Positions 17,852 through 46,890 of a stretch of 48,708 bases of DNA are shown here, piece after piece. Positions within the stretch are counted from its first letter, which is position 1; each line of letters starts with the position of its first letter. Both the position numbers and the translations under genes were made by a program. The notes beneath the pieces were generated by a model. That model ran no database searches. It worked only from the letters and a program-made list of their open reading frames with translations, and had not been told where the DNA came from. Location of the stretch: the NCBI GenBank assembly GCA_017744495.1, contig JAGIBE010000011.1, forward strand, positions 1-48,708, given 5' to 3'. Source of the stretch: Caulobacter sp. Lineage in GTDB: Bacteria; Pseudomonadota; Alphaproteobacteria; Caulobacterales; Caulobacteraceae.

Positions 17852-20521
17852 ATGAATAATCGATCGCGAAATATTCTAGTCGCGGGGGTTTCGGCTCTTT
17901 CTATCTCCATGGCGTATACTGGTTTGGCCCACGCCGACGAGCTGCCCGTCAAGACGGCCGATCCGGCCGCGACCGAGGTCGAGACCGTCATCGTCCTCGG
18001 AACGCGCAGGACCGACCGATCAGTGGTGGATTCGCCATCTCCGATCGACGTCTTCGGCGGGGAGGAACTCAGCCGTCAGCCGGCCGCCGACATGCTGGAT
18101 GTGGTCAAGAACCTCGTCCCGTCGTTCTACGTCCCGCAGAACACAATTTCCGACGCCTCGACCTTCGTGCGCGCGCCGTCCTTGCGAGGCCTCGGCGCCG
18201 ACCAGGTTCTCGTGATGATCAACGGCAAGCGCTACAATCGCTCCGCGCTGGTCCAGGTGGTGACGGGCGGCGACACAGCCCTGTCTCTGGGCGCCCAGGC
18301 CGTCGATCTGTCGATGATCCCGTCGATTGCTATCAAGGATCTGCAGATCCTGCGCGACGGCGCGACCGCCCAATACGGTTCCGACGCCATCGGCGGCGTC
18401 ATCAACTACGGCATCCGCAACAATGACAGCGGCGTCGAGCTGCAGGCGCGGTACGGAAAGACTTATGCCGGCGATGGCCGGAGCTATCAGTTCGCCGCCA
18501 ACGTCGGCTTCAAGCTGTTCGACGCTGGATTCGTCAACCTGTCGGGCGAGTACTTCGACGACGGCCAGACGAGCCGCGGCGCCACTCGGCCCATCGCGGC
18601 CGTCTTCGCGGCGAACAACCCGACCCTCGCCCCGCAGTTGCCCAACTATCCCGGTCCGGCGCAGATCTGGGGCACGTCGCCCACGAACGGCTACAAGCTG
18701 TTCCTCAACTCGGCCTACGACGTCAGCGAAAACACCAGCATCTACCTGACGGCCAACCTGGGACATCGCGAAGCCGACCAGAGTTTCAACTATCGTTCAC
18801 CGATCTCAGCCCCGACGCCGCTTGTGGTGGACGACGGCACGGGTACGCCCGCCACGCGCTCGCCGGGTCGCAACGGCGCCTTCGCCCCGATCTACCTGAC
18901 GCCCTGTCCGACCGGCAACGCCACCTGTCCCACAGGCGGCTTCGTCAAGGACGGCAACATCTTCAACTTCACGTCGGTCTACCCCGCCGGCTTCACGCCG
19001 CGTTTCCAGGGCGTGGTCGAGCAGTTCTACGGGACCATGGGCGTCAAGGGGGAGGCCGACAGCGGTCTGACCTACGACCTGTCGGGAACCCTGGCGAAGA
19101 ACTCGCTCGACCTGGCGATGACGAAATCGCTCAACGCCTCCTTCGGGCCCCAGAGCCAGAAGGAGTTCAAGTTCGGTAAGCTGATCCAGCGCGAAACCAA
19201 CCTGAACCTCGACCTGACCTATCCGATCGAAGTCGGCTTCGCGAGCCCGGTCACCCTGTCGGGCGGCGCCGAATATCGCCATGAGGAATATGAGGCCACG
19301 GCCGGCGACCTGCAGTCCTACGCTGCGGGGCCCTACGCGGTTCAGCCGCTGTACGTGCAGGTTTCTCCCGGCGTCTATGCCCGCTCGCTGACCGCGGGCG
19401 GCGCGCCCGAAACCGCCTCCCAGTCGCCCGGCGCCAGCGGTTACGGCGGCACCAGCCCGGCGTCGGCCAAGACCTCGACCCAGAGCAACTATGGCGTCTA
19501 TCTCGGCGCGGAGACCGACGTCACCGAGGCCTTCACGGTCGGCGTCGCCGGACGCTATGAGGATTACGACACGTTCGGCGACACCGTCGTCGGCAAGGCG
19601 AACGCCCTCTACAAGCTGACGGACATGTTCTCGGTGCGCGGCACTGTCGGCACCGGGTTCCACGCCCCGTCTCCCGGGCAGAGCAATACGGAAATCCTGA
19701 CGACCGCCTTCGCCCCCGGCGGTGAGCAGGTCCAGACCGGCACCTATCCGGTGACCAGCGCCATCGCGCAGTATTTCGGCGCGAAGACCCTGACGCCCGA
19801 GAAGTCCACCAACTACGGCGTCGGGTTCATCTTCAGCCCGATCAGCAACTTCACCCTCACCGTCGACGGCTATCTGATCAAGGTGAAGGACCGCATCAGC
19901 ATCACGAGCACTTTCGATGTCACGGCGGCCGACATCGTCGCTCAGCCCGCGCTCGCCGCGGTCGGCGTCGGCGGCGCGGTGGCCTACTTCACCAATGGCT
20001 TCGACACCAAGACCAAGGGGATCGACGCCGTCGCCAGCTACAGCACCGATCTTCTGGACAACCCGCTGCTCCTCTCGCTCGCCTATAGCTACAACAAGAG
20101 CGAAGTCACCAAGTTCGACCCGGTGGCCATCGGGGCCGATCGGATCTACGACATCGAGCACATCACGCCCAAGCACCGCGCCAATGTCTCGGCGAGCTAC
20201 CAGGTCGGCGGCTTCTCGATCAACGCCCGCGGCAACTACTACAGCAGTTGGAGCACCGACCAGGACTATCCGGGCCAGACGTTCGGCGCGAAGGTCACGG
20301 CCGACCTCGACGTCAGCTACACTATCGCGGAAAAATATACGGTCACCGTCGGGGCCAACAATCTCTTCGACGAATATCCGGACAAGCTCGCCCCGACCAC
20401 GGCCAACCCGATCTATGCTCTGACCAACAGCACGGCCGACGGCCAGATCTATCCGCGCTCGGGCGGTCCCTTCGGCATGAACGGCGGCTTCTGGTACGCG
20501 CGCCTGAAAGTGAAATACTAG
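17852..20521 (+). CDS. TonB-dependent receptor (889 aa)
   Basis: An outer-membrane receptor with a signal peptide (ILVAGVSALSISMAYTGLAHA) and a TonB box (VETVIVLGTRRTD). The plug domain carries APSLRGLGADQVLVMINGKRYNRSALV and LQILRDGATAQYGSDAIGGVINY, and a beta barrel ends LKVKY. It is shorter than the 1021-residue receptor upstream and belongs to the broad TonB-dependent siderophore/vitamin/oligomer group. No anti-sigma-signalling (STN) domain is present, so it is not expected to signal to an ECF factor. It stands alone between a leader and an intrinsic terminator. The substrate is unknown. Confidence 0.92.
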   Translation: MNNRSRNILVAGVSALSISMAYTGLAHADELPVKTADPAATEVETVIVLGTRRTDRSVVDSPSPIDVFGGEELSRQPAADMLDVVKNLVPSFYVPQNTISDASTFVRAPSLRGLGADQVLVMINGKRYNRSALVQVVTGGDTALSLGAQAVDLSMIPSIAIKDLQILRDGATAQYGSDAIGGVINYGIRNNDSGVELQARYGKTYAGDGRSYQFAANVGFKLFDAGFVNLSGEYFDDGQTSRGATRPIAAVFAANNPTLAPQLPNYPGPAQIWGTSPTNGYKLFLNSAYDVSENTSIYLTANLGHREADQSFNYRSPISAPTPLVVDDGTGTPATRSPGRNGAFAPIYLTPCPTGNATCPTGGFVKDGNIFNFTSVYPAGFTPRFQGVVEQFYGTMGVKGEADSGLTYDLSGTLAKNSLDLAMTKSLNASFGPQSQKEFKFGKLIQRETNLNLDLTYPIEVGFASPVTLSGGAEYRHEEYEATAGDLQSYAAGPYAVQPLYVQVSPGVYARSLTAGGAPETASQSPGASGYGGTSPASAKTSTQSNYGVYLGAETDVTEAFTVGVAGRYEDYDTFGDTVVGKANALYKLTDMFSVRGTVGTGFHAPSPGQSNTEILTTAFAPGGEQVQTGTYPVTSAIAQYFGAKTLTPEKSTNYGVGFIFSPISNFTLTVDGYLIKVKDRISITSTFDVTAADIVAQPALAAVGVGGAVAYFTNGFDTKTKGIDAVASYSTDLLDNPLLLSLAYSYNKSEVTKFDPVAIGADRIYDIEHITPKHRANVSASYQVGGFSINARGNYYSSWSTDQDYPGQTFGAKVTADLDVSYTIAEKYTVTVGANNLFDEYPDKLAPTTANPIYALTNSTADGQIYPRSGGPFGMNGGFWYARLKVKY

Positions 20522-20683: not shown

Positions 20684-21424
20684 TTAACGCCAACCTTTCG
20701 CTCGCGCCGTCTCCTCGGCGTTCCTGTCGAGCGGCGCACCATCGATCATGTCGTCCGTGGCCGCTAAGACAGCCGCAGGGAGCTCCGCGCCCGCCGTGCG
20801 GTAGGTCGCGACCTGGGAGGTCATCGGGCTGGCCACACGCAGGCGCCAGGCGTCGGCGTGTCGACAGGCGAGACCCGCCACGCCTTCACGGCCGTTGGGT
20901 TGGAAGGTCCGGCAGTAGGTCCCCTCTTTGTCGCGGAAACTGAGACCGATGCGGATCGGCCCCGAGACGTCGGCCGCCGTCTGGCGGTCGAGCGCGCGAG
21001 CGAGGGCGCCGGTGGCGACCAGGGCCTGACTGTCGCCGCCGTCGAGGCCGACCGGTGACGGCTGCGCCAGGCGTCCGACCGCCAGTCCGACAACCAGGCA
21101 CGCGGCCAGGCCCGCCCAAGCGGGCAGGCGAAACGTCGGGCTCTGGGACCTCGGAGCGGCGGCGGGGCGCCGCCGATCAGCCAGACTCACCACCTCGCCC
21201 GAGGTCGGCGCGCCGTTGCGGATCGTCTCCAGCAGGCGCTCGGGCAAAGGCTCCTGAACGATCGGATCGTAATGACCGCGCAGCAAGGCCTTGAGATCCC
21301 CCTGCGCCTTCAGGCGAGCGGCGAGATCGATATCCTTGCGCGCGGCGCCCTCGACCAGGGCGCGGGTCGCGGGGTCGAGCTCGTCGTCCACATAGGCGGC
21401 CAGGATCCGGTCGTCGAAGGTCAC
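20684..21424 (-). CDS. Membrane anti-sigma factor
   Basis: A 246-residue protein. The N-terminal anti-sigma domain (DDRILAAYVDDELDPATRALVEGAARKDIDLAARL) belongs to the family that holds an ECF sigma factor inactive. One membrane helix follows at about 101-118 (AWAGLAACLVVGLAVG), then a periplasmic domain of about 125 residues with two cysteines (TYCRTFQPNG, GLACRHAD). The zinc-binding HxxxCxxC of ZAS-type anti-sigmas is not seen. Its ATG overlaps the TGA of the sigma gene (ATGA), so the two are translationally coupled. The periplasmic domain is the likely sensor; the signal is unknown. Confidence 0.85.
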   Translation of the reverse strand: MTFDDRILAAYVDDELDPATRALVEGAARKDIDLAARLKAQGDLKALLRGHYDPIVQEPLPERLLETIRNGAPTSGEVVSLADRRRPAAAPRSQSPTFRLPAWAGLAACLVVGLAVGRLAQPSPVGLDGGDSQALVATGALARALDRQTAADVSGPIRIGLSFRDKEGTYCRTFQPNGREGVAGLACRHADAWRLRVASPMTSQVATYRTAGAELPAAVLAATDDMIDGAPLDRNAEETARAKGWR

Positions 21425-21921
21425 GGGTGGGCTCCTTGATCGATAAGGGCTGTCTGCAGAGCCGCCCGGCCGCGCGAGAGGCGGCTAGTCACGGTGCCGA
21501 CGGGGGTCTCCAGCACGGCGGCGGCCTCGTCGTAGGACAGGCCCTCGATCAGCACGAGGGCGACGGCGACGCGCTGCTCGTCGGGCAGGGCGGTCATGGC
21601 GCGCTCGACGGCCGAGAGGCCCAGCCGCGCATCCAACGTGGCTGAAGCCGGGTCGGCCGCATGCTCGCCCAACTCGGGCGCGGCGGTGACCTTGCCCCAG
21701 CGGGTACGCCGGCGTGTTTCGTCGATCCAGGCGTTCTTCATGATCCGGAACATCCAGCTGTCGAGCCGCGTATCGGGACGCCACTGATCCCGCCGGACCA
21801 GGGCCCGCTCCAGCGTCAGCTGCGTGAGGTCGTCGGCGTCGGCCGGATCGCGGGCCAGGGCGCGCGCCATCCGCCGCAAGCGCGGGGCATGGGCGACGAG
21901 CTCTGATTGGAATGCGTCCAA
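21421..21921 (-). CDS. ECF-family RNA polymerase sigma factor
   Basis: A 166-residue sigma factor. Region 2 (RRMARALARDPADADDLTQLTLERAL and SWMFRIMKNAWIDETRRR) binds the -10 box. Region 4 (MTALPDEQRVAVALVLIEGLSYDEAAAVLETPVGTVTSRLSRGRAAL) binds the -35 box. Start TTG 21919-21921 is preferred. It has an AAGGCGA site upstream, and the predicted promoter -10 box at 21951-21954 would place the transcript start about 24 bases before it. A longer frame would begin inside the promoter palindrome. It forms an operon with the anti-sigma gene and is divergent from an S8 protease gene. Autoregulation is likely because its promoter shares a motif with the protease and Gly-rich genes. Confidence 0.88.
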   Translation of the reverse strand: MDAFQSELVAHAPRLRRMARALARDPADADDLTQLTLERALVRRDQWRPDTRLDSWMFRIMKNAWIDETRRRTRWGKVTAAPELGEHAADPASATLDARLGLSAVERAMTALPDEQRVAVALVLIEGLSYDEAAAVLETPVGTVTSRLSRGRAALQTALIDQGAHP

Positions 21922-21940
21922 GATTTCGCCTTCGTGTCCT

Positions 21941-21980
21941 TGTTGGATGGAACGATCCGGCCCGGACGTTCCATCCAACA
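21941..21980. promoter_or_regulatory. 40-bp near-perfect palindrome: bidirectional ECF promoter
   Basis: TGTTGGATGGAACG (21941-21954) and its exact complement (21967-21980) flank a centre that is itself TCCGG-C-CCGGA, with one unpaired A at 21955. On each strand the palindrome presents GATGGAAC-N13-CGTT: plus strand 21946-21970, minus strand 21951-21975. One copy points to the S8 protease, the other to the sigma/anti-sigma operon. A related copy precedes the Gly-rich gene at 23307. Confidence 0.65.
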
Positions 21981-22046
21981 CGAGCCAAACTAATTTATAG
22001 ATCCCGGCCGAGACAAAGCTTGGCTGAGGACATGTCAAGGAAGCGT

Positions 22047-23282
22047 ATGAACGGGCGATGGATCCTCGCGGCGATGAGCGCCTTGGCGCTGGGCGCGACG
22101 GCGTCGGCGCAGATCGCGCCGGGGCTGCCCGCCACGCCTGGCTTGCGCGATCCGCTCGCGCCTGTCGGCGACCTGGTGCGCGAGCCTCTGGAGCAGGCTC
22201 TTGGCGCTGTCCGCGCGCTGGATGTCGCCGACCTGCGACTGGAGCGCCTGACCACCCTAGTGCGGGCCAATCCCCGCGTTCTGGACCTCGACGATCGCGG
22301 GCAGGCGGTGGTGCGCGGCGAGATCCTCGCGATGGCGCCGAGCGAGGAGGCCTTGGCGCGCCTGAAGACGGCGGGCTTCTCGATCGCCCGTGAAGAAGAC
22401 GCCGACGCTCTGGGGCTGCGCATGGTCACGTTGCGTCCGCCGAGCGGCCTCAATATCCGCGCCGCCGTGCGGAAGGCGCGCGAGATCGATCCGGCCGGCG
22501 ACTACGACTTCAACCACCTCTATGCCGGGGCGGACGCAGGCGCCGCGGCCGCGGCCGCCGCCAGCTCGTCACACGCGCTGCCGGCCGGCCGCGTGGGCCT
22601 GCTGGACGGCGGCGTCGATCGGGGTCACATGGCCTTCAGGGGCGTGGAGATCGAACAACGCGGCTTCGCGCCGGGCGGCGGCCGCCCCAGCCGCCACGGC
22701 ACGGCGGTGGCGTCGCTGCTGGTCGGCCGCGGCTTCGGCGGGCTTGGTGCGGGGTCGCGACTCTATGCGGCCGATGTCTACGGAACAGGCCCGACCGGAG
22801 GCTCGGCGGCGGCGATCGTCGGGGCGCTGAACTGGATGGCCGAGGCCAAGGCGCCGGTGGTCAATATCAGCCTTGTCGGTCCGGACAACGCCACCCTGCG
22901 CGCGGCCGTAAAGGCCCTGCAGTCGCGAGGTTGCCTCGTGGTGGCGGCGGTCGGCAACGACGGCCCGGCGGCGCCGTCGCTCTACCCCGCCTCGTACGCC
23001 GGCGTGGTCGCCGTTACGGGCGTCGACGCCAAGGGACGCCTTCTGCCTGAAGCGGGCAAGGCCAGCCATGTCGACTTCGCGGCGCTCGGCTCCGGCGTGA
23101 AGGTCGCCACCCCAGGCGGGGGCACGGCCAGCGTGCGCGGCACGTCCTACGCCGCCCCCGTGGTCGCCGCGCATCTGGCGGCTCGAGCCGACATCGCCGC
23201 CCTGGCTGCTCTGGCCAGGGATCTCGGCGCGCCGGGACCAGATCCGGTGTTCGGCAAGGGTTTCGTGGGTTCGGTGCAGTAG
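22047..23282 (+). CDS. Secreted subtilisin-like (S8) serine protease
   Basis: A 411-residue protease with signal peptide RWILAAMSALALGATASAQ. The catalytic triad is visible: D186 (GLLDGGVD), H216 (RHGTAVASLLVG) and S366 (GTSYAAPVVAAHLAA). The oxyanion residue is N303 (AVGNDGP). Residues about 25-155 form an uncharacterised N-terminal region that may be a prodomain. ATG 22047 is chosen because AAGGAAG (22037-22043) precedes it; ATG 22032 has a poorly spaced site. Transcription probably starts from the bidirectional ECF promoter about 75 bp upstream. It probably acts in the periplasm or outside the cell; the target is unknown. Confidence 0.88.
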   Translation: MNGRWILAAMSALALGATASAQIAPGLPATPGLRDPLAPVGDLVREPLEQALGAVRALDVADLRLERLTTLVRANPRVLDLDDRGQAVVRGEILAMAPSEEALARLKTAGFSIAREEDADALGLRMVTLRPPSGLNIRAAVRKAREIDPAGDYDFNHLYAGADAGAAAAAAASSSHALPAGRVGLLDGGVDRGHMAFRGVEIEQRGFAPGGGRPSRHGTAVASLLVGRGFGGLGAGSRLYAADVYGTGPTGGSAAAIVGALNWMAEAKAPVVNISLVGPDNATLRAAVKALQSRGCLVVAAVGNDGPAAPSLYPASYAGVVAVTGVDAKGRLLPEAGKASHVDFAALGSGVKVATPGGGTASVRGTSYAAPVVAAHLAARADIAALAALARDLGAPGPDPVFGKGFVGSVQ

Positions 23283-23306
23283 TCTCGAAAAATTTTGGGC
23301 CGTTGG

Positions 23307-23331
23307 GATGGATCGTCACGGACCCGTCGTT
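23307..23331 (+). promoter_or_regulatory. Third copy of the ECF promoter motif
   Basis: GATGGATC-N13-CGTT has the same boxes and the same spacing as the two promoters in the palindrome at 21941. The spacer also shares GTC and TCGTT edges with the minus-strand copy. It lies 52 bp before the ATG of the Gly-rich secreted protein, so that gene probably belongs to the same regulon. Confidence 0.6.
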
Positions 23332-24246: not shown

Positions 24247-24261
24247 TCCTCCTTAGGAGGA
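24247..24261 (-). repeat. Shine-Dalgarno-like palindrome over the trehalase stop codon
   Basis: TCCTCC-TTA-GGAGGA: a perfect six-pair stem whose loop and edge include the TAA stop of the trehalase gene (24253-24255, minus strand). It could be a weak terminator, but no T-run follows. Confidence 0.3.
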
Positions 24262-25842
24262 GGGATACAGCTCCAGCAGCGCACGCGTCACGCCATTGGT
24301 CCAGCCGAAGCCGTCCTGCAGCGGATACTCGCCGCCGCCGCCGGCCTTGGCCTCCTCGACGTCGTACTTCTCCAGCATCTTGCCGCTAGCCTGGTACTCG
24401 CGGGCGACAGTGGCCAGCCAGCGCACACTGATCGTTTTGGCCAAGTCGTCCTCGCCGTATCGCCGCAAGCCCGAGACGGCCACCCACTGCAGCGGGGCCC
24501 AGCCGTTGGGGGTATCCCACTGTTGACCGGTCGAGACCGTGGTGGTGCGCAAGCCGCCTGGCGCCAGCAGCAGGGCGCGGGTCGTGGCGGCCACGGCCTT
24601 GGCCTGGGCCGGGCTCGCCGTCCCGACGAAGAGCGGATAGAGGGTCGCGGCGCTGGGGTGGTCCAGTCGCGTCCGTTCGCGCCACTGATAGTCCAGGTAG
24701 AGCCCGCGCGGAGCATCCCAGAGATAGGCGTCAATCGCCTCCCGGCGAGCCTTGGCGCGGCCGCTGAATTCGGCGACGCAGGGAGCGTCCGCCAAGTCGG
24801 CGCAACCCTGGCTGATGGCCGTCTCCAGGCCGAACAGCAGGGCGTTGAGGTCTACCGGGATAATCGAGGTGGTCTGGATGGACTTCAGGCTCCTTCCGTC
24901 GGCCATCCAGCGCGAGCTGAAGTCCCAGCCGCTCTCCGCGCCCGAGCGCAGGTCGCGGAAGACGTCGCCGGCCGGACGGCTGGTGACCTCGCGGGCGGTC
25001 AGCACGTCCTCGCGATAGGACTCGTCGCGCGGCGTGGTCCGGTCGTCGGCGTAGCGGTTTAGAACCGAGCCGTCGGGCAGGGTGACCACGCGGCGATGCG
25101 CCTGGCCTGGCTTGAGGGTCTTTTCGCCGTCCATCCAGAAGGCGTGCTCGCGGCGCATCTGGTCGACGCGCGCCTTGAACCGCGCCTTGTCGGTCTTGTC
25201 CGTGAGCCCGACCATCGCGAAGTAGAACGGCGGCTGCGAACGGCTGAGATAGTAGGTGCGCGTGCCGTTGGGGATGTGGCCGTAGCGGTTGATCAGCCCT
25301 CCGAAGTCATCGACCATGTTCTCGACGGCGTCCTGGCGGCCGTCGGCGGCCAGGCCCAGCATCGTGAAATAGCTGTCCCAGTAATACATCTCGCGAAAGC
25401 GGCCGCCCGGCACCACGAAGGGCTTGTCCAGGGGAAGTGCGCTATCGCCGTCGACGGCCTTGACCGGCGCGCGCGTCAGCACCGGCCACAGGGCGGCGAT
25501 GTGGGCTTTCAGCGTGCTGCGGTCCTTCGACGGCGGCGGCGCGGCCGGGTTTTGCGGCAAGTCGAAATTGGCCCGCACGAAGCGCTTCAGCTCGGCGTCG
25601 GTGAAGGCGGCGTGGACGCGGTAGGCGGCCAGGATCTCGGCGGGCGGGCGCTTGGGCCTGGCGTCGACGAAGGTCTTGCCGTCCGGGAACAGCTTGCGCA
25701 TCTGCACCTGGTGGAACAGCTCGGCATAGGTGTCGGCAGGGGAGGCGACCTCGCTGGCATTGGTGGGAGCGGTCTGGGCGAAGACCGGCGCGGCGAGGGT
25801 GAACCAGGCGACGGCGGCGATTAGGACGTGGCGAGGGTTCAC
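24253..25842 (-). CDS. treA: Periplasmic alpha,alpha-trehalase (GH37)
   Basis: A 529-residue enzyme that splits trehalose into two glucose molecules in the periplasm. It has a signal peptide (VLIAAVAWFTLAAPVFAQ). Both GH37 signatures are present: PGGRFREMYYWDSYF and QWDTPNGWAP. The catalytic Asp is in the GWDFSSRW region, and the base Glu is in the GGGGEYPLQDGFGWTNG region. The start is GTG with GGAGGA five bases upstream. The length is normal for bacterial TreA. It lies downstream of an STN-domain TonB receptor on the same strand, with an intrinsic terminator between them, so it probably has its own promoter or relies on read-through. Confidence 0.93.
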   Translation of the reverse strand: MNPRHVLIAAVAWFTLAAPVFAQTAPTNASEVASPADTYAELFHQVQMRKLFPDGKTFVDARPKRPPAEILAAYRVHAAFTDAELKRFVRANFDLPQNPAAPPPSKDRSTLKAHIAALWPVLTRAPVKAVDGDSALPLDKPFVVPGGRFREMYYWDSYFTMLGLAADGRQDAVENMVDDFGGLINRYGHIPNGTRTYYLSRSQPPFYFAMVGLTDKTDKARFKARVDQMRREHAFWMDGEKTLKPGQAHRRVVTLPDGSVLNRYADDRTTPRDESYREDVLTAREVTSRPAGDVFRDLRSGAESGWDFSSRWMADGRSLKSIQTTSIIPVDLNALLFGLETAISQGCADLADAPCVAEFSGRAKARREAIDAYLWDAPRGLYLDYQWRERTRLDHPSAATLYPLFVGTASPAQAKAVAATTRALLLAPGGLRTTTVSTGQQWDTPNGWAPLQWVAVSGLRRYGEDDLAKTISVRWLATVAREYQASGKMLEKYDVEEAKAGGGGEYPLQDGFGWTNGVTRALLELYPSS

Positions 25843-25882
25843 GGCGTTCCTCCGAAGACAGACAGCCCAAGCTTCAAACGGG

Positions 25883-25918
25883 AAAACGCGGATCGGGTCC
25901 GAGGAGACCCGACCCGCG
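25883..25918 (-). terminator. Intrinsic terminator of the STN TonB receptor
   Basis: On the minus strand a GC-rich hairpin (25918 to 25887, 11 to 12 pairs with one mismatch) is followed at once by TTTT (25886-25883). It lies between the receptor stop and the trehalase start. Confidence 0.72.
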
Positions 25919-25996
25919 GCAGGAGAGTTGCTGGGGGAGCAACCCGTCCGCGGCTCCGACTGGGGGCGGCGCTGCGGCTCTGATCGGGAGAACCGG

Positions 25997-28564
25997 TCAG
26001 AAGTTGTAGCCGACGCTGAACTTGAAGCTTCGGCCCAGGATCGGACGGGCGTTCGCGCCGCTGGTCGAGCGAGGGTCGCCCTCGGTCAGGCCGTGGCTGT
26101 CGGTCAGGTTGTCGGCCGAGACCTGGACGGTGAAGTCGGCGACGTCGAAGATCGCGCCCAGGTCGACCTTGGTGTAGCCCTTTAGCACCTGGGTGTTGGC
26201 GTTGTCGGCGTAGCGGTCGTCCACGGCGCTGACCGTGCCGTAGAAGGTCGATTCCACCGAGCCTAGGGTCACGTCGTAGCTGGGGGTGAAACGGATCATC
26301 CAGTCGGGCTGACGCTGGGCGCTGTTGCCCTTGTTGGCCGGGATCGACGACTTGACGATCTCGGTCTTCTGGAAGGTGCCGTTCAGGGCCAGGGACAGGC
26401 CGAAGTCCGAGCGCCAGCGGCCATCCAGCTCCAGGCCGTGGGCCTTGTTGCTGTTGCTCTCCTGGACGCCGCCGACATCGGCGAACTTGGCGCCCTCGAA
26501 CTTGTTGGCGAAGCCGGTGGCGTAGAGCTCGAACGGGCCGCTGCGCAGCTTGTAGCCCAGCTCGTACTGGTCGACCGACAGGGTGTCGGTCAGGCCTTCG
26601 CGGAAGTTGTCGAAGCTGGGGAACTTGTAGCCGCGCGAATAGCGGCCGAACACGCCCGACACGCTGTTGATGTCGTAGTTCACCCCGACGGTGTAGCTGG
26701 TCTTGCTGTTGCTGTAGTCGGTGGTGCGCAGGGCCAGGCCGTCAGGAAACCCGGGACCGTCATCGACCACATAGTCTGTCTGGAAGCGCTCGCGGCGCAC
26801 GCCCAGATCGATGCGCAGCGGATCGATCACCTGCCAGGAGTCGGCCAGGTAGAAGGCGTCCACGCGCCCGTCTCCGGCCGAGGTCAGGCCGAACTTGAAG
26901 CAGCTGGACGTGCTGCCCGCCGCGGCCAGGTCGGCGCAGGTGACCGGGGCGGCCAGATAGTCGCCGTTGGCCTTGACCTGCATCGGCTCGACATTGCCCA
27001 GAGTCCAGAAGTCGTCGGACTTGAAGCTGGACGCGTAATAGCCGGCCGACAGCTGATGGGTTCCCAGGGTCTTGGCGATCGACAGGTCGTTGGTCAGCGC
27101 CTTGATCTTCTTCTCGACGATCCAGGCGCCCCAGTTCTGCACGTAGTCGGTCGAGGCCAGGGCGCCGCCGCCGCGGGTCCTGATCGCGCCGGGCACGACT
27201 GTATTGAGGGAGGCCACCGTGATCGCCGCGCCGTCCGGCACCAGGCCATAGGTGTTGGCGTCACCGTCAGTCAGGCTGAAGCGGTCGCGCACCTGCCAGC
27301 CGTCGCCGAACTCGTGCTCGAAACTGCCGCCGGCCACATAACCCTTGAAGCCCCGGCCGTCGGCCAGATCAAAATTGCGGGTCGCGCCGGCGGCGTTGAC
27401 CTGCAGGGTGTGGAAGCGGCTGGCCTCGCCGATCTGGGTGTAGGTCCCCTTGTCGACGCCGGGCACGTTGATCGCGAACGGCAGGTACCAGGCGCCGTGG
27501 TCGTCGGTGTAGCGGGCGTAGAGATTGATCTTCCCGCGTTCCATCCGCTTGGTGATGTTGACCGTGAACTGCTGGCCGACCTCGCTGTCGAACTGGGTGT
27601 CACGCACGCCCGGCGAGGTGGTCGCGTAGCCGCCAACCATGAAATAAAGGTCGTCGGCCAGCTTGCCGCTGACCAGGCCGTCGACGCGGCGGAGGTCGTA
27701 GTCGGAGGTGGACAGCTTGATCAGTCCGTGGGTCTCCTCGCCGCCTTCCTTGAGCTGGAAGTTCGTCGTCAAGCCGGGCTGGCCGTTGGAGAAGATCGGG
27801 TTGGGGCCGCCACGCAGGGCTTCCATCCGCGAGATGGTCTCGTCCACCCGGAAGATCGAGCTGTTCTCCAGGAACGAGAGGGTGGAGGGCGGATAGATCG
27901 GCGCGCCCTGCAGCTGGATCGTCAGGAACTCGGCGTCGCCGGTGGCGGGGAAGCCGCGGACGAAGACGTTGGCGCCGGCCACGCCGCCAGAGGTCTCGAC
28001 CCATACGCCGGGCACCAGGGTCAGCAGCTCGGCGGTGCTCTTGGGCGAGGCCTTGGTGATGTCGTCGGCGTTGACAGTGGTGACCGCGAAGCTGGCGGCC
28101 AGCTTGTCGATGCCCTTGCCGCCGGGCGTGCCGACCACGATCAGTTCATCGACCTGGGCGGGCGTCTCCGGATCGGGCTCGGCCGCCGTCGCCGGCGCGG
28201 CGGCCGTCTGGGCGCTGGTGGCGACCAGGAGGGTCTTGGCGCGGATGGCGTAGACCCCGCTGGCGGTGGCCTGTGCGCTCAGACCCGTGCCGTTCAGCAG
28301 ACGCTTGAGACCGGCCTCGGCGGTGTAGGCGCCGGTGAGAGCCGGGGCGCGCTTGCCACGCACGCTCGCCTCGTCGAAGGCCAGCTGCTGGCCGGACGCC
28401 TGGCCGAAGGCGCGCAGGGCGCTGCTCAGATCCTGGGCGGGGATGTCGAAGCTGTAGGTGATCCGCTGCTGCTGGGCGTGCACCGCGACGGGCGCGGTCA
28501 GGAGCATCAAGGCCGCGGCCGCGGTGGAGCTCCAAGCCAGACGGCGGTCGAACGTTCTGCGCAT
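25997..28564 (-). CDS. TonB-dependent receptor with STN signalling domain
   Basis: An 855-residue outer-membrane transducer. After a signal peptide (AAALMLLTAPVAVHAQ) comes an STN (secretin/TonB short N-terminal) domain at about 35-105 (FDIPAQDLSSALRAFGQASGQQLAFDEASV). This is the part that talks to FecR-type anti-sigma factors. An Ala/Pro linker, a TonB box-like VDELIVVGTPGG, the plug and a barrel ending FKFSVGYNF follow. ATG 28562-28564 has a strong AGGGAGG site. It lies 57 bp behind fecR and fecI, so this is a classic cell-surface signalling unit. The trehalase downstream hints at a trehalose-related or glycan substrate, but FecA-like iron transport is the usual role of such sets. Confidence 0.93.
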   Translation of the reverse strand: MRRTFDRRLAWSSTAAAALMLLTAPVAVHAQQQRITYSFDIPAQDLSSALRAFGQASGQQLAFDEASVRGKRAPALTGAYTAEAGLKRLLNGTGLSAQATASGVYAIRAKTLLVATSAQTAAAPATAAEPDPETPAQVDELIVVGTPGGKGIDKLAASFAVTTVNADDITKASPKSTAELLTLVPGVWVETSGGVAGANVFVRGFPATGDAEFLTIQLQGAPIYPPSTLSFLENSSIFRVDETISRMEALRGGPNPIFSNGQPGLTTNFQLKEGGEETHGLIKLSTSDYDLRRVDGLVSGKLADDLYFMVGGYATTSPGVRDTQFDSEVGQQFTVNITKRMERGKINLYARYTDDHGAWYLPFAINVPGVDKGTYTQIGEASRFHTLQVNAAGATRNFDLADGRGFKGYVAGGSFEHEFGDGWQVRDRFSLTDGDANTYGLVPDGAAITVASLNTVVPGAIRTRGGGALASTDYVQNWGAWIVEKKIKALTNDLSIAKTLGTHQLSAGYYASSFKSDDFWTLGNVEPMQVKANGDYLAAPVTCADLAAAGSTSSCFKFGLTSAGDGRVDAFYLADSWQVIDPLRIDLGVRRERFQTDYVVDDGPGFPDGLALRTTDYSNSKTSYTVGVNYDINSVSGVFGRYSRGYKFPSFDNFREGLTDTLSVDQYELGYKLRSGPFELYATGFANKFEGAKFADVGGVQESNSNKAHGLELDGRWRSDFGLSLALNGTFQKTEIVKSSIPANKGNSAQRQPDWMIRFTPSYDVTLGSVESTFYGTVSAVDDRYADNANTQVLKGYTKVDLGAIFDVADFTVQVSADNLTDSHGLTEGDPRSTSGANARPILGRSFKFSVGYNF

Positions 28565-28621
28565 TGTCTTCCCTCCCTTATGCGCCAACGTTGATTGCGG
28601 CGCTTTGGAAAGTGAGACGCC

Positions 28622-46341: not shown

Positions 46342-46890
46342 GTGCGTCAACGGAAGAAGAACGCCAGGCACTGGTCAACGGCTGTTGAGACGATGGTCGC
46401 GATGGATCGCGACGCGACGGACGTTCCGACGACCAAGATGAGATTAATCGCCCCGCCTGCCGAGCATCTGGCCCCTTTTGATCGAGATCTCTTGAAAAGT
46501 CGCGAGGCCGGCGAGAACCCGGTGTTCTGCGAAGATCTGCGCTCGATGTGTCTGGGGCTTGAATGCGAGGCGGCGCGCCGGGCGGCCATGCGCCGATCGG
46601 GCGTGGACCTGGCGATCTTGCAACAATGCTTGGCCGATCTCGCGGCCGATCCTTCCAGCCTGGCCGCGCGCACCATTCAACGCGTGTTCCGGCTGACGAT
46701 CTGCACGGCCTTGGGTCGTTCGGCGGCGCGGTTGGCGTCGGGCCTGATCGGAGCGCAACGGCAGCTGGACGCCCGCTGGGAGCGGGAGACGATCGCGGCT
46801 CGGTCCGAGGCGATGCGACGCGTCTTCCTGGCCATCCGCGATGGCGACGAGGTCGCCGCCGCCGCGGCGATGCGCGGCGTGATCGGTTGA
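46342..46890 (+). CDS. Possible FCD-like helical protein without DNA-binding domain
   Basis: A 182-residue, mostly helical protein. Residues about 60-180 resemble the FCD ligand domain of FadR-type GntR regulators: LRSMCLGLECEAARRAAMRRSGVDLAILQQCL, then VFRLTICTALGRSAARLASGLI and a final AMRRVFLAIRDGDEVAAAAAMRGVI. The winged helix is missing, and histidines that usually bind metal in FCD are replaced (VFR for FH). I prefer GTG 46342 because GGGAGGG (46331-46337) precedes it; an ATG at 46324 is possible. It lies directly before a GH2 gene, so it may be a decayed or repurposed regulator. The family call is tentative. Confidence 0.5.
   Translation: MRQRKKNARHWSTAVETMVAMDRDATDVPTTKMRLIAPPAEHLAPFDRDLLKSREAGENPVFCEDLRSMCLGLECEAARRAAMRRSGVDLAILQQCLADLAADPSSLAARTIQRVFRLTICTALGRSAARLASGLIGAQRQLDARWERETIAARSEAMRRVFLAIRDGDEVAAAAAMRGVIG

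Follow-up and report, generated by a model that had tools for sequence, protein, structure and literature searches.

A conserved palindrome as the predicted shared promoter of an ECF sigma factor operon and a divergent S8 protease gene

A family of loci, in which the operon of an ECF sigma factor lies back to back with a gene for an S8 (subtilisin-type) protease, bears on whether the overlap of two divergent promoters is selected or incidental. Bidirectional promoters consist of pseudo-symmetrical DNA and, according to the available sections of PMC12825309, have hardly been studied. At the five E. coli bidirectional promoters described in those sections basal transcription was too low for the two directions to compete, and activation of one direction could repress the other (PMC12825309). 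By analogy, an induced ECF regulon may be a case in which the activated direction represses its partner. The terms "ECF" and "alternative sigma" are absent from the text of PMC12825309.

The neighbourhood and the promoter class are already known in outline from the ECF26 group, as reported in the available sections of PMC6180224, on which this paragraph draws. The arrangement of rpoE6 divergent from a serine protease gene is widely conserved in ECF26. Overexpression of RpoE6 in Sinorhizobium (S.) meliloti raised 40 genes, with the most prominent targets near the sigma gene, and raised the divergent serine protease SMa0142. The mapped SMa0142 promoter reads GGAAT-N16-CGTT (spacing counted in this analysis) with the start 9 nt further on, and the ECF26 consensus is given as GGAATA for the -35 and GT for the -10 element. 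The mapped start of rpoE6 itself is associated with RpoD/RpoH-like motifs, although its authors favour autogenous control of the operon (PMC6180224).

The locus analyzed here lies in a stretch of 48,708 nt from Caulobacter sp. (hereafter the window) and its features are collected in Table 1. The sigma protein (query 21421-21930, 169 aa) matches Pfam Sigma70_r2 (E 3.4e-13) and Sigma70_r4_2 (E 5.9e-15); as is characteristic of ECF factors it has regions sigma2 and sigma4 only, region 3 being without a Pfam match. Its best NCBIfam model is NF009164 (136.7 against a cutoff of 185). In the ECF26 group the neighbouring anti-sigma factor is characterized by an N-terminal domain, a single membrane helix and a C-terminus in the periplasm. 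The anti-sigma protein of the locus matches the NCBIfam antisigma model NF052375 with E 3.3e-6 and 27.3 bits, below the cutoff of 100; it gave no match in a Pfam search and has one hydrophobic stretch as judged by eye. The protease matches Pfam Peptidase_S8 (E 6.3e-20) and has a signal-like N-terminus, and for the Gly-rich protein nothing matched in Pfam or NCBIfam. The locus is flanked on one side by a gene for a TonB-dependent receptor (Pfam, 17852-20521) and on the other, within 24253-28588, by a trehalase gene (Pfam E 5.5e-152) and an ORF at 25997-28588 that resembles by eye another TonB-dependent receptor.

Table 1 Genes and predicted promoter elements of the locus (positions of the window)
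Feature	Position	Strand	Remarks
Anti-sigma factor gene, 246 aa	20684..21424	-	start overlaps 3' end of sigma gene
ECF sigma factor gene	21421..21921	-	TTG start at 21921
40-bp palindrome, proposed shared bidirectional promoter	21941..21980		core 21945-21976 = GGATGGAACG-N12-CGTTCCATCC
Predicted protease-ward promoter	21945..21970	+	-35 GGATGGA 21945-21951, N15, -10 CGTT 21967-21970
Predicted sigma-ward promoter	21951..21976	-	-35 GGATGGA 21976-21970, N15, -10 CGTT 21954-21951
S8 (subtilisin-type) protease gene	22032..23282	+	ATG at 22032 or 22047
Predicted third promoter, not palindromic	23306..23331	+	-35 GGATGGA 23306-23312, N15, -10 CGTT 23328-23331
Gly-rich protein gene, 252 aa	23383..24141	+	N-terminus signal-like

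On comparative evidence we consider it highly probable that the ECF sigma factor, whose neighbourhood is ECF26-like, is autoregulated: from one bidirectional promoter it would transcribe both its own operon and the divergent S8 protease gene and, in addition, from a separate site the gene for the Gly-rich secreted protein. Released by its anti-sigma factor, the sigma factor would direct the holoenzyme to GGATGRA-N15-CGTT at three starts, and a recognition sequence is thereby proposed for an ECF factor. The starts of sigma/anti-sigma and of the protease would be superimposed head-over-tail on one 32-bp palindrome, in which the -35 of each strand would run into the -10 of the opposite strand; the third would be a plain one-way copy before the Gly-rich gene. 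Polymerase would sit on the palindrome in one orientation at a time, and initiations would therefore be split between more sigma/anti-sigma and more protease. The preliminary description concluded that the two directions cannot fire together; on a single DNA molecule this holds sterically, and the regulatory effect is putative. In a limited search of open-access literature we found no description of the inducing signal of this ECF factor.

The palindrome in the gap had been described before as 40 bp long and near-perfect; its coordinates and extent were confirmed, with 17 of 20 pairs matched. Among 5000 shuffles of the 125-nt gap none reached 17 pairs, the largest number being 16; in these and in the shuffles for site scores and offsets given below, base composition was kept, dinucleotides and phylogeny were not. 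By comparison with the mapped start of SMa0142 (PMC6180224, available sections), protease-ward transcription would be expected to start near 21979, and the sigma-ward start is expected near 21942, with a leader of about 21 nt. The two copies of the motif within the palindrome are not independent, since the CGTT of one arm is matched by its reverse complement, AACG, in the opposite arm. Of the three copies pointed out earlier, two are thus one palindrome read twice, and the window alone holds two independent sites. The identical spacing at three starts emphasized in the preliminary description is to that extent a tautology of the palindrome. The motif nevertheless behaves like a promoter element of the locus, and many relatives retain it at each of the three starts.

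Across the family, 299 genomes were searched for the sigma gene, and 254 of them matched at E 1e-20 or better; many of these matches are weak and we take them to be paralogues. The 90 stretches assembled comprised 76 fetched loci (chiefly the best-scoring family matches), 13 of 80 loci from a named collection and the window. The other 67 named loci were left out: L001, L002, L004, L005 and L009 were taken as already fetched, and the less similar L019-L080 were scanned for GGAWC-N13-CGTT only. Six stretches were dropped because S8 was not matched on the expected strand or sigma identity was below 45%, and three for an identical 130-nt gap, which left 81 distinct loci, 5 betaproteobacterial and 76 others (among the latter L017, labelled only Proteobacteria). 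A betaproteobacterial set (31 of 245 genomes matched) gave 30 loci; two of them, L187 and L188, duplicate L014 and L018 and were removed, so that 28 loci joined the five earlier ones to make 33. A set from the sphingomonad order (5 of 246 genomes matched) gave 4 loci, L217 being a repeat of L012. Sites were scored against the 11 positions of the yardstick GGATGAA-N15-CGTT in the sigma-ward direction (F), in the protease-ward direction (R) and before the Gly-rich gene (G). Many loci come from close relatives, and the counts of loci are not counts of independent events.

The layout is kept widely. A divergent S8 match is present in 81/81 loci by selection of the rows, an anti-sigma homologue follows the sigma gene in 78, and 64 also have a Gly-rich match after the protease gene. 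The codon aligned with the start codon of the sigma gene in the window is TTG in 59 of the 81. Both F and R scored at least 10/11 in 65/81 loci (0/1620 shuffled gaps), and F, R and G all did so in 52 of the 76 non-betaproteobacterial loci. In 67 of these 76 each strand carries a GGATGAA-like box, N15 and CGTT, interlocked with its counterpart in one 32-bp frame. A symmetric sequence with a promoter-like element on each strand, as is characteristic of bidirectional promoters, is thus found in the window and in most relatives. The exact form, GGA-N19-CGTT on both strands at offset 32, occurs in 64/76, and the further loci from the sphingomonad order are interlocked like the window at the same offset (4/4). 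Offset 32 was found in none of 15200 and none of 800 shuffles, and both sites at a different offset in 1 of 15200. When all spacers from 10 to 23 were allowed, the sigma-ward spacer was N15 in 73/81 gaps. The end of CGTT lies 10-20 nt upstream of the codon aligned with sigma query residue 1, which is three codons upstream of TTG, in 74/76 loci. The sequence upstream of the sigma gene is, in many loci, GGATGAAACG-N12-CGTTTCATCC or a near variant. Alignment of this gap in related strains, proposed in the preliminary description, thus shows both the palindrome and the third copy kept in most loci. The sites, their spacing, their conservation and their superposition are read directly from the sequence.

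The third copy of the motif ends 51 nt upstream of the Gly-rich gene and, on recounting, equals the minus-strand copy at 18/25 positions, in agreement with the earlier count. G was scored in 80 of the 81 loci, since in one the fetched stretch ended; it reached at least 10/11 in 65, 9 in 6 and less than 9 in 9, compared with 3 of 1600 shuffles at 10/11 or more. Downstream of the protease stop many relatives read GGGATGAA...CGTTGGAC or near it. In 64 loci an ORF lies behind the third promoter, and 56 of these ORFs have an AQLLGG-like motif in the N-terminus. The site travels with the Gly-rich gene. It is present in L129, where that gene is found about 1 kb past the S8 gene, and also at a second Gly-rich gene elsewhere in genome G074 (L222).

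If the palindrome consists of two superimposed promoters, its conservation can be compared with that of this one-way site. For 67 palindromes and 70 Gly sites, per-position information of the palindrome correlated at 0.56 with the one-way Gly promoter, and at 0.81 (sum) or 0.89 (maximum) with the Gly promoter combined with its reverse complement. Because both sets were aligned with the common yardstick, agreement at its own positions is favoured, and the positions outside it are therefore the most telling. The CG after GGATGAAA is such a case: it is loose in the Gly promoter (0.56 and 0.67) and invariant in the palindrome, where it belongs to the opposite -10.

A near-perfect palindrome within a divergent gap is the classical layout of an operator. 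The palindrome could accordingly be read as an operator at which a dimeric protein represses or activates both genes, with the promoters elsewhere, and 33 of the 67 interlocked loci do have GGATGAA in each arm. We regard this as very improbable, because the same half-sequence with CGTT recurs upstream of the Gly-rich gene as a one-way site, Betaproteobacteria shift the symmetry centre and leave the -35/-10 spacing unchanged, and the arms vary within a repertoire of -35 elements. In ten loci from the genus Caulobacter GGAAGAA forms the protease-ward arm and is found again in the distant Gly promoter, and the sigma-ward arm is GGATTAA, GGACTAA or GGATTGA. Such variation would be expected of sites read by a sigma factor, the ten loci being close relatives that represent few independent events.

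If the palindrome is a pair of promoters, the next question is which sigma factor reads it. GGAAC is the -35 of the ECF15 group, to which EcfG/SigT belongs, and the preliminary description compared the sites with GGAAC/CGTT boxes at an unusually short spacing. This proved to be an error of register. The conserved -35 is GGATGAA; this strain, like a small number of relatives, has the minority form GGATGGA. GGATG is separated from CGTT by 17 nt, an ordinary ECF spacing. The reading GGAAC-N13-CGTT arises from one variant base in this strain and is not the conserved unit. A promoter read by another ECF factor such as EcfG/SigT would explain the GGAAC...CGTT string of this strain, and in S. meliloti the targets of RpoE2 (ECF15), among which GGAAC -35 elements are listed in Table 1 of PMC6180224, overlap with those of RpoE6 (available sections of that paper). 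There is nonetheless very little chance that this is the case here: GGAAC is not conserved, relatives having mostly GGATGAA, some clades share a -35 variant among the promoters of the locus, and the sites are concentrated beside this sigma gene as described below. The locus thus resembles the EcfG/SigT system in the CGTT -10 box and in the GGAAC string of this strain, and differs from it in the conserved -35 and in having an anti-sigma gene of its own.

Of the 299 family genomes, 32 contain a single copy each of the exact consensus palindrome (N6-12 allowed), always with N12 and always beside this sigma gene, 4-11 nt before the codon aligned with query residue 1; the reversed control gave 0 matches. 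In a class-wide sample it was found in 3/385 genomes, two of them in the family, and the third match (L231, outside the family) is again surrounded by sigma, anti-sigma and divergent S8 genes. The one-way motif GGATGAA-N15-CGTTKG gave 40 matches in 34 of 61 locus-holding genomes, 36 of them at the locus, with 1 match of the reversed control. The 27 genomes without a match, the window's own genome among them, have other -35 forms or no such site. The preliminary proposal of recognition by the local sigma factor is fitted by this locus-bound occurrence and by the motif kept at three starts in 52/76 loci; recognition, autoregulation and the exclusion of one direction by the other are what we infer.

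Within the window GATGGAWC-N13-CGTT has 4 exact matches, the three sites of the locus and 46401-46425, compared with a mean of 0.43 in shuffled windows when one mismatch was allowed (0/100 reached 4). The genome scan proposed in the preliminary description returned these 4 matches and no further ones from the 4.3-Mb genome (assembly 85% complete), and 0 for the reversed pattern. GGATGRA-N15-CGTT likewise finds only the three sites at the locus in this genome. The small local regulon proposed at that time is likely. A wider one in this genome is not supported, GGATNRA-N15-CGTT giving 11 matches with 1 in the reversed control.

The fourth copy was rejected as a member of the regulon: the leading G is absent, its end lies 12 nt before the next ATG, and it probably arose by chance. 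The protein behind it was matched in 4/61 same-genus genomes, its own included, and no copy was found when the loci of the three relatives with such a match (L226, L227 and L228) were scanned on the coding strand. Within 46401-46890 the copy lies just upstream of ATG 46438 of a regulator-like ORF. What precedes the match in L226 and L228 looks by eye like a coding helix-turn-helix region, and the ORF at 46438 may be without an N-terminal domain present in relatives.

Three of the four off-locus matches of GGATGAA-N15-CGTTKG are in G074 and one in G292. Those in G074 precede the Gly-rich protein already mentioned, an RTX-type-repeat-like ORF and a sugar-kinase-like ORF (labels by eye), the last being taken as chance; the G074 sites (L222, L223) hint at a wider secreted-protein regulon in that species. 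Two loci have one more GGATGAA-N15-CGTTGG site, located downstream of the anti-sigma gene (L155:5304 and L158:5305), with no ORF of at least 80 aa starting within 300 nt on the same strand.

The overlap takes another form in Betaproteobacteria, where the promoters are not interlocked and overlap at the -35, as AACG...GGGATTTTATTCCC...CGTT. Offset 12 is found in 30/33 betaproteobacterial loci (0/6600 shuffles), and the sigma-ward site is kept in 33/33; the exact protease-ward site was not found in L202, L206 and L213. Among the 76 other loci, nine are not interlocked, five of one genus and four others, and in most of them shuffles match the protease-ward strand as well as the best site does. 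The five from one genus have non-overlapping best matches, with a protease-ward score of only 8, within the shuffle range. In L148, L149, L154, L160 and L161 an A/T run on the protease-ward side is followed by a conserved TGCAGCAA, about 15 nt upstream of CGTT; this element is unlike the sigma-ward site, and the protease possibly has a different promoter there. The pair of sigma and protease genes would thus usually share promoter DNA, in one of two ways, and need not do so.

Selection could have maintained this sharing, offset 32 in Alphaproteobacteria and offset 12 in Betaproteobacteria being two geometries of one exclusive switch, a tentative reading that we hold to be quite possible and somewhat short of probable. 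Each binding event of polymerase would then choose sigma/anti-sigma or protease. The overlap may instead be a by-product of a short gap, without a regulatory role, exclusion being physically true and never limiting; this too is possible, though on the doubtful side. The gap is short, 85-170 nt separating the sigma start from the first aligned residue of S8 in 67/81 loci, and the five E. coli promoters showed no interference at basal activity (PMC12825309, available sections). The first ATG of a long ORF, taken as the S8 start, is wrong for several loci. Short gaps can hold separate promoters, however, as in the five loci of one genus with a protease-ward score of only 8, and the interlock is fixed to the base in 64/76 loci, with Betaproteobacteria overlapping otherwise. 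With an overlap fixed to the base across many species, two geometries and a few loci without it, the family offers a clean test of whether exclusion matters.

Compared with the E. coli bidirectional promoters, the palindrome has the same symmetry; binding of RNA polymerase either way and divergent transcripts are reported there (PMC12825309, available sections), and are predicted here from sequence alone. It differs in combining an ECF -35/-10 pair and the mirror image of that pair in one interlocked site, in the retention of this site across many species, and in having the sigma gene itself among the products. The RpoE6 system is similar in the sigma/anti-sigma operon divergent from a serine protease gene, here and in relatives, in a CGTT protease promoter raised by the sigma factor there, and in the sites that cluster at the sigma gene here. 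It is different in the -35 (GGATGRA with N17 here, GGAAT with N16 for SMa0142), in the number of targets (three sites found here, 40 genes raised by RpoE6), in the RpoD/RpoH-like motifs at the mapped rpoE6 start and in symmetry, the mapped SMa0142 sequence given in the available sections of PMC6180224 being by eye not such a palindrome. An interlocked ECF palindrome, its conservation and the second geometry were not found in a limited search of open-access literature.

A GGAATA-like -35 also occurs in the sample: GGAATAA is seen in L171, L173, L175, L017 and several Betaproteobacteria, compared with GGATGRA/CGTT here. In L171, L173 and L175 the sigma-ward promoter reads GGAATAA-N15-CGTT without a palindrome. 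The divergent ORF of these three loci has 595-628 aa with a first part that is Asp/Gly-rich by eye, about 930-990 nt lie between sigma and the beginning of the S8 match, and the ORF seems to be an S8 protease with a long N-terminal extension.
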